NCBI GenBank assembly: GCA_002839705.1
Contig: PGYO01000009.1
Span: 1 to 64,000 of the forward strand
Length of the DNA: 64,000 nt
Direction of reading: 5' to 3'
From: Methanobacteriales archaeon HGW-Methanobacteriales-1
GTDB taxonomy: Archaea; Methanobacteriota; Methanobacteria; Methanobacteriales; Methanobacteriaceae
The notes under the pieces were generated by a model that ran no database searches, was not told the DNA's origin, and saw nothing but the letters and a program-made list of their open reading frames with translations. A program made the translations under genes and the position numbers. Positions 11,958 to 38,856 of this stretch are shown here, piece after piece (positions within the stretch are counted from its first letter, which is position 1; each line of letters starts with the position of its first letter).

Positions 11958-12704
11958 ATGGTCAAAGTTCTTATAGTTGGGGATAAGAGCATAGAATCCA
12001 GAGGTCTTAAGAGTACATTAGAATCTTTTGGTTATGAAGTTCCTTACGTCACTTCCAGTAACAAAGAAGCTGTGGAGAAAGCTTTAGAGATTAAACCAGA
12101 TCTTATTTTGATAGATATTGTTAAAGGCGATATTGATAGTATTGGAACTGCTTCTAAGATTAAAAAGTTGGATATACCTGTAATATTTTTAACTGCTCAT
12201 TCTAAAGAAATTAAAATTGAAAAAATCAAACTCAAAGAACCACATGGATTTATAGTTAAACCATACGATCCTCTTGAACTTAAATATGCCATAGAACTTG
12301 CCATTTACAAAAAACAGATGAAAAATGAATTGAATGAATGCATTAATAATGAATTTTTGGGAAATATTGTGGAAAATATTCCCAACATGATCTTTATAAA
12401 AAGTGTGGATAATCTTCAATTTGAAATGGTTAACAAGGCAGGAGAAGACTTGCTGGGGCATTCAAGAGAAGAATTACTGGGTAAAACTGACTATGACTTT
12501 TTCCCAAAAGACGAAGCGGATTTTTTCACACAAAAAGATAGGGAAGTCCTGCAAAACAAGAAATTATTAGATATTCCCGAAGAAATTATTGAAACCAAGA
12601 ATTTAGGTTTAAAAGAATATTACACACCAAGAAAATTCCTATTCTTAACCAGGAAGGTAATCCTCAATATCTCCTTGGTATATCCGAAGACATCACCGAA
12701 CTAA
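11958..12704 (+). CDS. 5' part of a split hybrid sensor kinase: receiver plus PAS
   Basis: Begins at ATG 11958 after GGAGG. Residues 1-120 form a response-regulator receiver with phospho-acceptor Asp53 (LILIDIV), a FLTAHS switch region and a VKPYDPLEL lysine motif. A PAS domain follows (about 135-225, from NIVENIPNMIFIKSVDN to a KTDYDFFPKDEADFF block). At about 12623 the reading leaves the PAS frame and ends with an unrelated tail. Shifted by one base, the frame continues as HTKKIPILNQEGNPQYLLGI, SEDITELKKAEKS and runs straight into the next open frame. The two frames are therefore one gene broken by a single-base loss, or a sequencing error. Confidence 0.8.
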   Translation: MVKVLIVGDKSIESRGLKSTLESFGYEVPYVTSSNKEAVEKALEIKPDLILIDIVKGDIDSIGTASKIKKLDIPVIFLTAHSKEIKIEKIKLKEPHGFIVKPYDPLELKYAIELAIYKKQMKNELNECINNEFLGNIVENIPNMIFIKSVDNLQFEMVNKAGEDLLGHSREELLGKTDYDFFPKDEADFFTQKDREVLQNKKLLDIPEEIIETKNLGLKEYYTPRKFLFLTRKVILNISLVYPKTSPN

Positions 12705-36017: not shown

Positions 36018-37472
36018 ATGTCTTATGATAAAGAAAAATTATCCAGTGGGATATCAGGGCTTGATGAGATTTTAATGGGTGGATTTGTACCTAAAAGATC
36101 ATATTTACTTCGGGGAATGCCCGGAACAGGTAAAACTGCTCTGGGAATGCATTTTCTATCTGAAGGTGTGAAAAATAATGAGAAAGTGCTTTTCATTAAC
36201 ATGGGGGAACCCACAGATCAGATCATTGAAAATGCCCAAAAAATGGGCTTTAAGGTGGATAATATTGATTTTTTAGATTTAAGTCCTGACGAAAGTTTTT
36301 TTTCTAAAATGGAGGCTTATGATATATTTTCTCCTGCGGAAGTGGAACGAGAATCGACTACCTCTGAGATTATTGAAAAAATTGAATCATTGAATCCGCA
36401 GAGGGTATTTTTGGATCCAATAACTCAATTTAGATATCTTTCGACCGATGAATTCCAGTTTAGAAAACAAGCTCTATCGTTTCTCAGATTTTTAACTGAT
36501 AAAGGAGCTACCGTTTTATTCACTTCAGAATTTAGTGCTAATGATCCGGATGATGATCTACAATTCATGAGTGATGGTATAATCAACCTTGATTTTTTCT
36601 CGGAAGGTAGAAGTATCTCTGTAAGTAAATTCAGGGGATCAGGTTTTCGTTTTGGAACCCATTCTATGAGAATAACTCCGTATGGTGTGAAAATATATCC
36701 TCGTTTGCGCCCTATGTTAAAAGAAAAAGAGTTCAAACATGAAACCATATCTTCAGGGGTTCCTGAGATTGACGAACTTTTACATGGGGGTATAGAAAGA
36801 GGTACAGCAACTATAATAAGTGGACCCAGTGGTGTTGGTAAAACTACAATCGGAATTCAATTTATGAAAGAAGCTGCCGGGCGAGGTGAACGTTCAGTTG
36901 TATATACCTTTGAAGAAAGTTTAGAAAGTCTCATAAACCGATGTGAATCAATCAATATACCGGTAAAAAGCATGATCAATACGGGTATGTTGGAGGTAGT
37001 CCCGGTAGAGCCTCTTCGATATTCACCTGAAGAATTTGCACAATTGGTACGTAAAGAAGTTGATTCTAATGAATCTAAGATTGTAATGATTGATAGTACA
37101 TCTGGATACACTCTATCCCTACGTGGAGAGGATCCAGTAAGTCACTTACACTCTATTACCAAATATATGACCCGCAGTGGTGTTACAGTTATTCTTATAG
37201 ATGAAGTTGAGAACATTACCGGAGGATTGAAAGTAACTGAAATTGGAATCAGTTACCTGGCAGACAACATTATCTTCTTGCGCTACTTTGAGATGAGTGG
37301 TGAAATGCGAAAAGCAATAGGAGTTCTTAAAAAACGTTTAAGTGATTTTGAAAAAGGCCTTCGTGAGATTACTATAACAAAATATGGAATTAGAGTTGGT
37401 CAACCGCTTAAAAACATACGTGGCATACTCAACGGTTCACTCGAAAGAGTTAACAACGAGGATAGTGACTAA
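36018..37472 (+). CDS. KaiC-like double-domain RecA-type ATPase
   Basis: A 484-residue protein with two KaiC domains. CI (about 5-235) opens SSGISGLDEILMGGFVPKRS and has Walker A GMPGTGKT (about 33-40). CII (about 245-475) opens SSGVPEIDELLHGGIERGT with GPSGVGKT. Walker B regions are RVFLDPITQF and KIVMIDSTSGY. The acidic pair after Walker A that marks catalytic KaiC is not obvious. It heads a three-gene operon with a receiver protein and a HisKA_2 kinase, so it is likely a signalling ATPase rather than a clock; no KaiA/KaiB is seen. Confidence 0.88.
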   Translation: MSYDKEKLSSGISGLDEILMGGFVPKRSYLLRGMPGTGKTALGMHFLSEGVKNNEKVLFINMGEPTDQIIENAQKMGFKVDNIDFLDLSPDESFFSKMEAYDIFSPAEVERESTTSEIIEKIESLNPQRVFLDPITQFRYLSTDEFQFRKQALSFLRFLTDKGATVLFTSEFSANDPDDDLQFMSDGIINLDFFSEGRSISVSKFRGSGFRFGTHSMRITPYGVKIYPRLRPMLKEKEFKHETISSGVPEIDELLHGGIERGTATIISGPSGVGKTTIGIQFMKEAAGRGERSVVYTFEESLESLINRCESINIPVKSMINTGMLEVVPVEPLRYSPEEFAQLVRKEVDSNESKIVMIDSTSGYTLSLRGEDPVSHLHSITKYMTRSGVTVILIDEVENITGGLKVTEIGISYLADNIIFLRYFEMSGEMRKAIGVLKKRLSDFEKGLREITITKYGIRVGQPLKNIRGILNGSLERVNNEDSD

Positions 37473-37473
37473 A

Positions 37474-37839
37474 ATGTCACTTAAACCACTAATCTTGGCT
37501 TTAAATAGAAATAAACGAAACTTGGAAATTTTAGAGAAGATATTGGGTAAAGAAGGATATCAAGTTGTAGGTGTTTTGGATCCTCCGGAATTGGATTTGG
37601 AAATTGAAAAACAAGAAAAAATTGATCTGGCATTAATGGACATTTCTGGTTTTGATAAAAGTATCTGGACTTCTTGTGAACGCTTGAGAATAAAAGAAAT
37701 ACCTTTTCTAATTCTAAGTCCACATCATCAAAGAGCAGTTGAAGAGCAAGGTAAAATTGAAGGTGCCCATGGAGTATTGGTTAAACCATTGGTTGTTAAA
37801 GAACTTTTAGTACTTATTAAAAGTCTAATTGATGATTAA
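37474..37839 (+). CDS. Stand-alone receiver-like protein
   Basis: A 121-residue protein. It has the pattern of a receiver domain: LILALNRNKRNLEILEKILG, then the phospho-acceptor region KIDLALMDISGFD, FLILSPHH and GVLVKPLVVKELL with the conserved Lys. The acidic pair normally at the end of strand 1 is replaced (ALNRN), so Mg binding and phosphorylation may be weakened. Its ATG is one base after the KaiC-like stop, so translation is probably coupled. It is followed after 24 bases by a histidine kinase. Confidence 0.82.
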   Translation: MSLKPLILALNRNKRNLEILEKILGKEGYQVVGVLDPPELDLEIEKQEKIDLALMDISGFDKSIWTSCERLRIKEIPFLILSPHHQRAVEEQGKIEGAHGVLVKPLVVKELLVLIKSLIDD

Positions 37840-37863
37840 ATACAATGATCTTGGAGAGATTAT

Positions 37864-38856
37864 ATGGAAAAGATTTTGATTTTACTTACAAATCCCAAGA
37901 ACAGTGAGATGATAGGTACTCTCTTAGGGGCTAATTATGATATTATTTACTCCCTATCTGAAATTGAGGAAGATTCTAAAGATATAGATACTATAAGTCT
38001 GATAATCACGGATTTAATTTCCTGGTCTCGAAATGGGGAAAAATTAAAATCTATCAAAGAAAAAGAAATGCCACTATTTTTACCTTTTCTTCTGGTTGTT
38101 GCTCCTAATGATCTTAAAAATGCACAAAATATTATTTGGGAAAGCTTTGATGAAGTGATAATCGTACCTATAACCAAGATAGTCCTTTCCTCCAGAGTAA
38201 AGGTTCTTTTGCAGACACGTGAACTTTCCCTCCAAGTAAATCAACTTCTCAAAGACAAAGAGATGTTAATTAAGGAAATCCATCATAGGGTGAAAAATAA
38301 TTTAACTGTAATCAGCAGCCTACTAAGTCTTCAATCACGTTATATTAAGGATGAATCCGATAAGGATTTATTTAAAGAGAGTGAAAACCGGGCTAAATCC
38401 ATGGCCCTAATTCATGAGAGACTCTATCGTTCAGAAGATGTTAAAAGTATTGATTTTTCAGATTATATTACCTCACTATCCAGAGATCTTTTTGATACAT
38501 ATGTCACATCTAAAGATAAAATCCAGCTAAAGTTAGATGTGGAAAATATAATGGTGGATGTAGATAATACTGTTCCTCTGGGCCTCATAATCAATGAACT
38601 GGTTACCAATTGTCTTAAATATGCATTCCCTTCTAATCGACCAGGTACTATTAATATTAATTTTCATAAGATAGGTTCAGAATATGTGCTGGAAGTAAGT
38701 GATGATGGTATCGGCCTACCAGAAGACTTTGATGTGGATAAAAGTGATAGTTTAGGTATGCGACTGATATCAGGCCTCACTTCTCAGCTTGATGGAGAAA
38801 TGGAAATGTTGAATGAATCAGGGACTACCTTCCGCATACGATTCAGTGATAGCTAA
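37864..38856 (+). CDS. HisKA_2 histidine kinase with N-terminal receiver-like domain
   Basis: A 330-residue soluble kinase. The N-terminal 120 residues look like a degenerate receiver (LIITDLISWS at the phospho-site, IIVPITKIVLSSRVKVLL at the end). HisKA_2 follows with the phosphoacceptor [19 protein letters not shown], then HATPase_c with NELVTNCLKYAF and DDGIGLPED. The catalytic half closely resembles that of the MEDS kinase at 14.3-16.4 kb, suggesting lineage expansion. Third gene of the KaiC/receiver/kinase operon. Confidence 0.87.
   Translation: MEKILILLTNPKNSEMIGTLLGANYDIIYSLSEIEEDSKDIDTISLIITDLISWSRNGEKLKSIKEKEMPLFLPFLLVVAPNDLKNAQNIIWESFDEVIIVPITKIVLSSRVKVLLQTRELSLQVNQLLKDKEMLIKEIHHRVKNNLTVISSLLSLQSRYIKDESDKDLFKESENRAKSMALIHERLYRSEDVKSIDFSDYITSLSRDLFDTYVTSKDKIQLKLDVENIMVDVDNTVPLGLIINELVTNCLKYAFPSNRPGTININFHKIGSEYVLEVSDDGIGLPEDFDVDKSDSLGMRLISGLTSQLDGEMEMLNESGTTFRIRFSDS

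Follow-up and report, generated by a model that had tools for sequence, protein, structure and literature searches.

A conserved pseudo-receiver encoded between kaiC and a histidine kinase gene in a methanogenic archaeon and in cyanobacteria

On balance, we lean towards the interpretation that three adjacent genes of Methanobacteriales archaeon HGW-Methanobacteriales-1, which encode a KaiC-family ATPase, a stand-alone pseudo-receiver (PsR) and a histidine kinase, make up a single signalling unit, in which KaiC would provide input or timing, the kinase would provide the output, and two receiver-shaped domains (the free PsR and a second one at the N-terminus of the kinase) would couple them. Through the PsRs, KaiC probably exerts its control over the kinase by physical contact instead of the usual phosphate transfer. 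The gene order recurs in other genomes, kaiC and PsR are inherited together, the loss of the acidic pair from the PsR is conserved, and the motifs of the kinase and of the CII domain of KaiC are intact. The genes are located in a stretch of 64,000 nucleotides, hereafter the window (contig PGYO01000009.1, positions 1 to 64,000), and their relatives were surveyed in Methanobacteriota, Cyanobacteriota and plasmids, with an additional scan of IMG/VR for viral relatives.

The reading of the open reading frames in the window placed kaiC, PsR and kinase in this order on the forward strand, the kinase gene as a whole extending over positions 37864-38856 (Table 1). The PsR starts with the ATG at 37474 and the kinase with the ATG at 37864, and the gaps of 1 base (kaiC to PsR) and 24 bases (PsR to kinase) are exactly those given by an earlier, sequence-only reading of this DNA. 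The GAGGA sequence of the PsR still lies within the coding region of kaiC, close to its end, suggesting that translation of the two genes is coupled, and from the gene spacing we infer that the trio is co-transcribed in this archaeon. Purifying selection was indicated by dN/dS values of about 0.06-0.14 for KaiC and the kinase; for the short PsR the estimate is noisy (0.11-0.34).

Table 1. Features of the three-gene unit, in window coordinates.
Feature	Position	Strand	Basis
KaiC-family ATPase, CI and CII KaiC domains, 484 aa	36018..37472	+	PF06745, Walker A motifs, Aliterella atlantica identity
Probable ribosome-binding site (GAGGA) for the PsR, within the 3' end of kaiC	37457..37461	+	Read from the sequence
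Stand-alone PsR of 121 aa, with N-R replacing the acidic pair	37474..37839	+	Pfam, alignment, AlphaFold2, Foldseek
N-terminal pseudo-receiver domain of the kinase, about residues 1-130	37864..38253	+	Homology to kaiC-adjacent kinases, hhalign, PDB profile
Kinase core, HisKA_2 and HATPase_c	38275..38853	+	PF07568, PF02518, intact motifs

The PsR gene product barely passes the Pfam cut-off for Response_reg (PF00072, 34.9 bits vs 30.2), and it is the weakest of the 26 receiver matches in the host genome. The AlphaFold2 model is nevertheless a regular (beta-alpha)5 fold (pLDDT 82), whose best solved matches in Foldseek are receiver domains (TM 0.8-0.88). The sequence-only reading had described both receivers of the unit as degenerate and had pointed to ALNRN in place of the acidic pair of the PsR. 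This sequence is present, and in the alignment with YycF its N-R faces the acidic pair (N-R-D-S-K against D-D-D-T-K); the acceptor Asp56, the Ser and Lys104 are retained, a point absent from that reading. The protein therefore combines a PF00072 match and a receiver fold with the loss of key catalytic residues, as pseudo-receivers do, and it lacks the complete set of acidic pair, Asp, Thr/Ser and Lys of an ordinary two-component receiver. The other 25 receivers of the host are nearly all canonical (EDDTK or EDDSK), and since all but few of them keep EDD, the change in the acidic pair is specific to the PsR slot. Two host receivers besides the PsR are atypical, with GDDTK (window 11967-12293) and ETNTK (host genome C6:65332-65664), respectively.

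The same residue pattern was observed throughout the family. Residues were tallied in 52 distinct homologues, two of them fused to GGDEF, after removal of a duplicate row (G488) and of a second match in genome G732 (L137), which is canonical and belongs to a different kind of receiver. The second acidic position (DD2) was acidic in none of the 51 homologues that cover it, one further row being gapped; it was occupied by R in 34, H in 6, K in 4, C in 2, T in 2, and I, F and Y in one each. The acceptor Asp was found in 52/52 and the Lys in all 50 sequences covering that part, and the Thr position holds S, A, T, L or Y, with S or T in most. Canonical receivers in homologous operons, which the sequence-only reading had named as evidence that would speak against it, were sought, and none was found in this slot among the 52 homologues. 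Chance or recent decay of the window PsR was rejected on the basis of this constant pattern; as judged from the aligned residues, the "broken" receivers are an old conserved design. One homologue (G691, L119 1501-1866) contains an in-frame TAG after approximately 90 codons, between intact kaiC and kinase genes, and represents either a pseudogene or a sequencing error.

These residues bear on two other interpretations. According to the first, which we regard as somewhat unlikely, the unit is a two-component branch in disguise: the kinase would phosphorylate Asp56 of the PsR despite the altered metal site, and the phosphorylated PsR would act on KaiC as its effector. The universal Asp and Lys, the S or T in most stand-alone PsRs and the intact window kinase are all in agreement with such a branch, and phosphorylation can persist after DD substitutions (PMC12632262); however, DD2 is a direct ligand of the metal, it is never acidic in the PsRs and is mostly Arg, Lys or His, and the retention of EDD by nearly all other host receivers confines the change to this slot. 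Because every stand-alone PsR has both Asp and Lys, a slow or special phosphorylation is possible, and the term "phosphorylation-independent", offered in the sequence-only reading, is too strong. According to the second interpretation, which is quite improbable on its own and which can also be accommodated as a sub-case of the contact model favoured here, the basic residue at DD2 would imitate the phosphorylated form and lock the PsR in an active-like state, so that a constitutive signal would be set by its amount or by binding to KaiC. A basic residue (R, K or H) occupies DD2 in 44/51 PsRs, and the constitutively active CheY D13K/Y106W mimics CheY-P (PMC11528121); this precedent, however, is a double mutant, and in some PsRs DD2 is occupied by C, T, I, F or Y.

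The window kinase was assigned to HisKA_2 (PF07568, 2e-31) and HATPase_c (PF02518, 6e-10), the host genome having 29 HisKA_2 matches in all, this one included, and its H, N and G boxes are complete (HHRVKNN, NELVTN, DDGIGL, SLGMRL). No Pfam match was obtained for residues 1-130. Residues 1-125 are nevertheless receiver-like: hhalign aligned them to the PsR alignment (A3) with a probability of 95.7% (E 1e-8), and the best PDB profile match was PleD REC2 (E 7e-14). The AlphaFold2 model of this domain, which was built from a two-sequence input, is unreliable (pLDDT 43). The domain is homologous to that of kaiC-adjacent kinases in cyanobacteria and haloarchaea, and of the five catalytic positions it keeps the Asp alone, so that the description of both receivers as degenerate holds for the kinase as well. 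Among 50 such kinase PsRs the Asp is always there and the Lys is gone in 45, while the residues assigned to the acidic pair depend on the alignment. Two further kaiC-adjacent cyanobacterial kinases (L145 and L147), additional to these 50, show a Cys at the position of the acceptor Asp (DLCIVCG and DLCIICG, respectively).

The window KaiC contains two KaiC domains (Pfam PF06745, 7e-74) and is 62% identical to that of the cyanobacterium Aliterella atlantica. Walker A motifs are present in both CI and CII, and the catalytic FEE is intact in CII; the corresponding pair in CI is MGE, not FEE. The equivalents of S431/T432 in CII are S-Y (GISYLADN), which is a phosphorylatable pair. In the clade of this protein the Walker A motifs of the two domains and the FEE of CII were retained wherever they were read, the Ser-Tyr phosphosites are near-universal, and MGE or LGE replaces FEE in the CI of the methanogen and most cyanobacterial members. 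A Tyr at the phosphosite is also known from some KaiC3 proteins (PMC5520375). In the KaiC tree the clade is separate from the clock KaiC1 clade (support 100/100), and the window protein has no long C-terminal tail beyond the last conserved block. KaiB (PF07689) gave no match above the cut-off in 139 Methanobacteriaceae genomes and none at all in the host genome, and as a partner of the window KaiC it was thus ruled out. No kaiA was found adjoining the operon among the window open reading frames; KaiA has been reported from cyanobacteria only (PMC5520375).

PsR and this KaiC occur together in 4/139 Methanobacteriaceae genomes, namely those of the host, its two congeners and a member of one other genus. 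The gene order agrees in all four; in two of them the locus is interrupted at contig ends, and its pieces are consistent with this order. At the locus of A. atlantica, the PsR is 45% identical to the window PsR and is accompanied by a kinase with the matching N-terminal domain. A PsR profile search of 391 Cyanobacteriales genomes (E < 1e-20) identified 39 PsR-bearing genomes, 34 of which have the order kaiC, PsR and PsR-kinase. In the remainder, two had kaiC and PsR with no PsR-kinase seen, one lay at a contig end, and two had a PsR-GGDEF protein without kaiC. The order of the trio thus holds in 34/39 PsR-bearing Cyanobacteriales and is consistent in 4/4 Methanobacteriaceae carriers, and it was also found in two further genomes of the cyanobacterial phylum sample (G165 and G367). 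The sequence-only reading had referred to coupled KaiC-like proteins and phosphorelay parts as reported in archaea; this is understated, since the full trio is chiefly cyanobacterial among the genomes searched and the methanogen copy looks acquired.

This KaiC was detected in 66/391 Cyanobacteriales genomes: 36 carry both KaiC and PsR, 30 only KaiC and 3 only PsR (Fisher p 4e-29, a statistic that ignores kinship). Of 20 Cyanobacteriales kaiC loci without a stand-alone PsR that were read, 19 have kaiC followed by the PsR-kinase. Taken with the 34/39 genomes above, this indicates that kaiC and the PsR-kinase are the constant core, to which the free PsR is often added as a third component. In two cyanobacterial loci (L131 3381-4811 and L136 3392-4357) a PsR-GGDEF protein with an intact RYGGEEF stands at the place of kaiC, before the PsR-kinase, which suggests a c-di-GMP version of the module; as these loci are without kaiC, PsRs are apparently able to work without KaiC.

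In haloarchaea the arrangement is partly different. In Haladaptatus and Halorussus, kaiC and a PsR gene that overlaps it are found on plasmids, with no kinase adjoining them, and other haloarchaeal kaiC genes adjoin kinases or PAS proteins bearing the kinase-type PsR. Among 19 plasmid records with the kinase-type PsR, 14 have this kaiC within approximately 3 kb, as judged by coordinates. A tblastn search of the plasmids with the window kinase PsR as query gave no match; with a cyanobacterial kinase PsR as query, matches were found. A Haladaptatus caseinilyticus plasmid (L045 69-5825) carries two kaiC-PsR pairs in a stretch of under 6 kb, and gvpD is a common annotation for plasmid-borne kaiC of this clade. 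In Halorussus vallis, the PsR is preceded by a 42-residue open reading frame (L089 2849-2974) whose start and end both resemble those of kaiC; the middle of the gene has apparently been deleted, which would have left the PsR behind. Two proteobacterial plasmid kinases (L050 5472-7598 and L098 4481-7408) adjoin more distant kaiC genes; their starts are receiver-like by eye, with the Asp (LLTEE) and the Lys (ERPL) missing, and their N-termini gave weak matches or none to profile A4. Virus-borne spread was discarded, the IMG/VR scan having yielded no relative.

The haloarchaeal loci in which a PsR follows kaiC without an adjoining kinase would also fit a reversed flow, in which a sensor kinase acts through the PsR to set the ATPase or autokinase activity of KaiC, KaiC being the output. 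We consider this unlikely. KaiC-like proteins have been proposed as signalling hubs in archaea, in literature cited by PMC5847659; on the other hand, adjacency of the kinase to kaiC is more widespread than that of the PsR, and the neighbourhoods have no output gene in common. The near-invariant adjacency of kaiC and PsR-kinase fits control of the kinase by KaiC, although gene order by itself is equally compatible with KaiC governing the kinase or the kinase governing KaiC.

Regarding the origin of the methanogen copy, the methanogen KaiCs group with the cyanobacterial ones (SH-aLRT 99) and are nested among them (87). The AU test did not reject a grouping of methanogen with haloarchaeal KaiCs (p 0.38), so that a cyanobacterial donor is favoured rather than proven, and strict proof of the transfer fails on this test. 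Where a phosphoacceptor box was recognised in the cyanobacterial and haloarchaeal partner kinases, it is of the HisKA type, and the Methanobacteriaceae kinases have a HisKA_2 core. A coupling domain that is kept and a catalytic core that is different suggest domain exchange after arrival.

The closest prior system is the KaiC/Nt_HK family (De Luca et al. 2011, PMC3164672). As described in that paper, a Ramlibacter kaiC with SY phosphosites is co-transcribed with the gene of a kinase with a receiver-like N-terminus, and kaiC-receiver neighbours are placed in a separate heterogeneous group. The window unit shares with this family the SY-type KaiC, the absence of kaiB and the downstream kinase with a conserved receiver-like N-terminus, and differs from it in the stand-alone PsR between the genes and in the HisKA_2 core of the methanogen kinase. 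The stand-alone circadian or hourglass timer proposed there for the Ramlibacter pair would agree with the phosphorylatable S-Y pair in CII and the missing kaiB of the window unit; we nevertheless regard a timer of this kind as very improbable here, in a strictly anaerobic methanogen with no obvious daily cue, in which KaiB is absent and the catalytic Glu pair of CI is altered to MGE. The KaiABC clock with SasA and CikA likewise couples KaiC to histidine kinases and pseudo-receivers (KaiA, CikA), but the window unit is without kaiB, its KaiC belongs to another clade with S-Y rather than S-T, and the long C-terminal tail is missing. CirC of Haloferax volcanii, known by context and expression only (PMC3941300) and compared here through its Haloferax larsenii relative (pHl5678-2, L092), is also an archaeal two-domain KaiC beside a sensor-kinase-like gene (fixL). 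With the pseudo-receivers reviewed in PMC12632262 the window PsR has in common a PF00072-recognised receiver fold with key residues gone, but its family is distinct, being tied to kaiC and having the motif D-I-S-G-F-x-x-x-I-W-x-x-C. That review knew of no functional study of any archaeal PsR, and no description of the pseudo-receiver trio was found in the open-access literature. What is new in comparison with prior work is the conserved PsR between kaiC and kinase, the spread across domains, and the exchange of HisKA for HisKA_2 in the methanogen core.

In the contact model that we favour, a KaiC hexamer would be the input or timing element, and the free PsR and the kinase PsR would form a complex with it as adaptors reading its nucleotide or phosphorylation state. 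This reading would set the autophosphorylation of the kinase, in the way that the pseudo-receivers of CikA and KaiA work in the cyanobacterial clock. The analogy is with the PsRs of CikA and KaiA, which act by binding, and that of PleD, which acts through domain contacts (PMC12632262). The kinase would then phosphorylate a canonical receiver encoded elsewhere in the genome, and the HisKA_2 core of the methanogen may plug the module into the relay of the host. Speaking against this model, the conserved Asp and Lys of the PsR are unexpected in a pure adaptor, and two cyanobacterial loci have the PsR-GGDEF protein in place of kaiC.

More tentatively, we suggest that cyanobacteria and methanogens, and in part haloarchaea, may share a KaiC switch whose two PsRs would pass the state of KaiC to a kinase without Asp phosphorylation. 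Such a switch would be a second KaiC output beside SasA/CikA, and it would have moved into an archaeon where its kinase core was exchanged for the host type. If true, the trio would give a direct test case for KaiC output through pseudo-receivers that is conserved in dozens of cyanobacteria, and it would reveal how a non-clock KaiC talks to two-component signalling. It would also mean that a module of signalling genes can pass from one domain of life to another, swapping its kinase core while the coupling domain stays.
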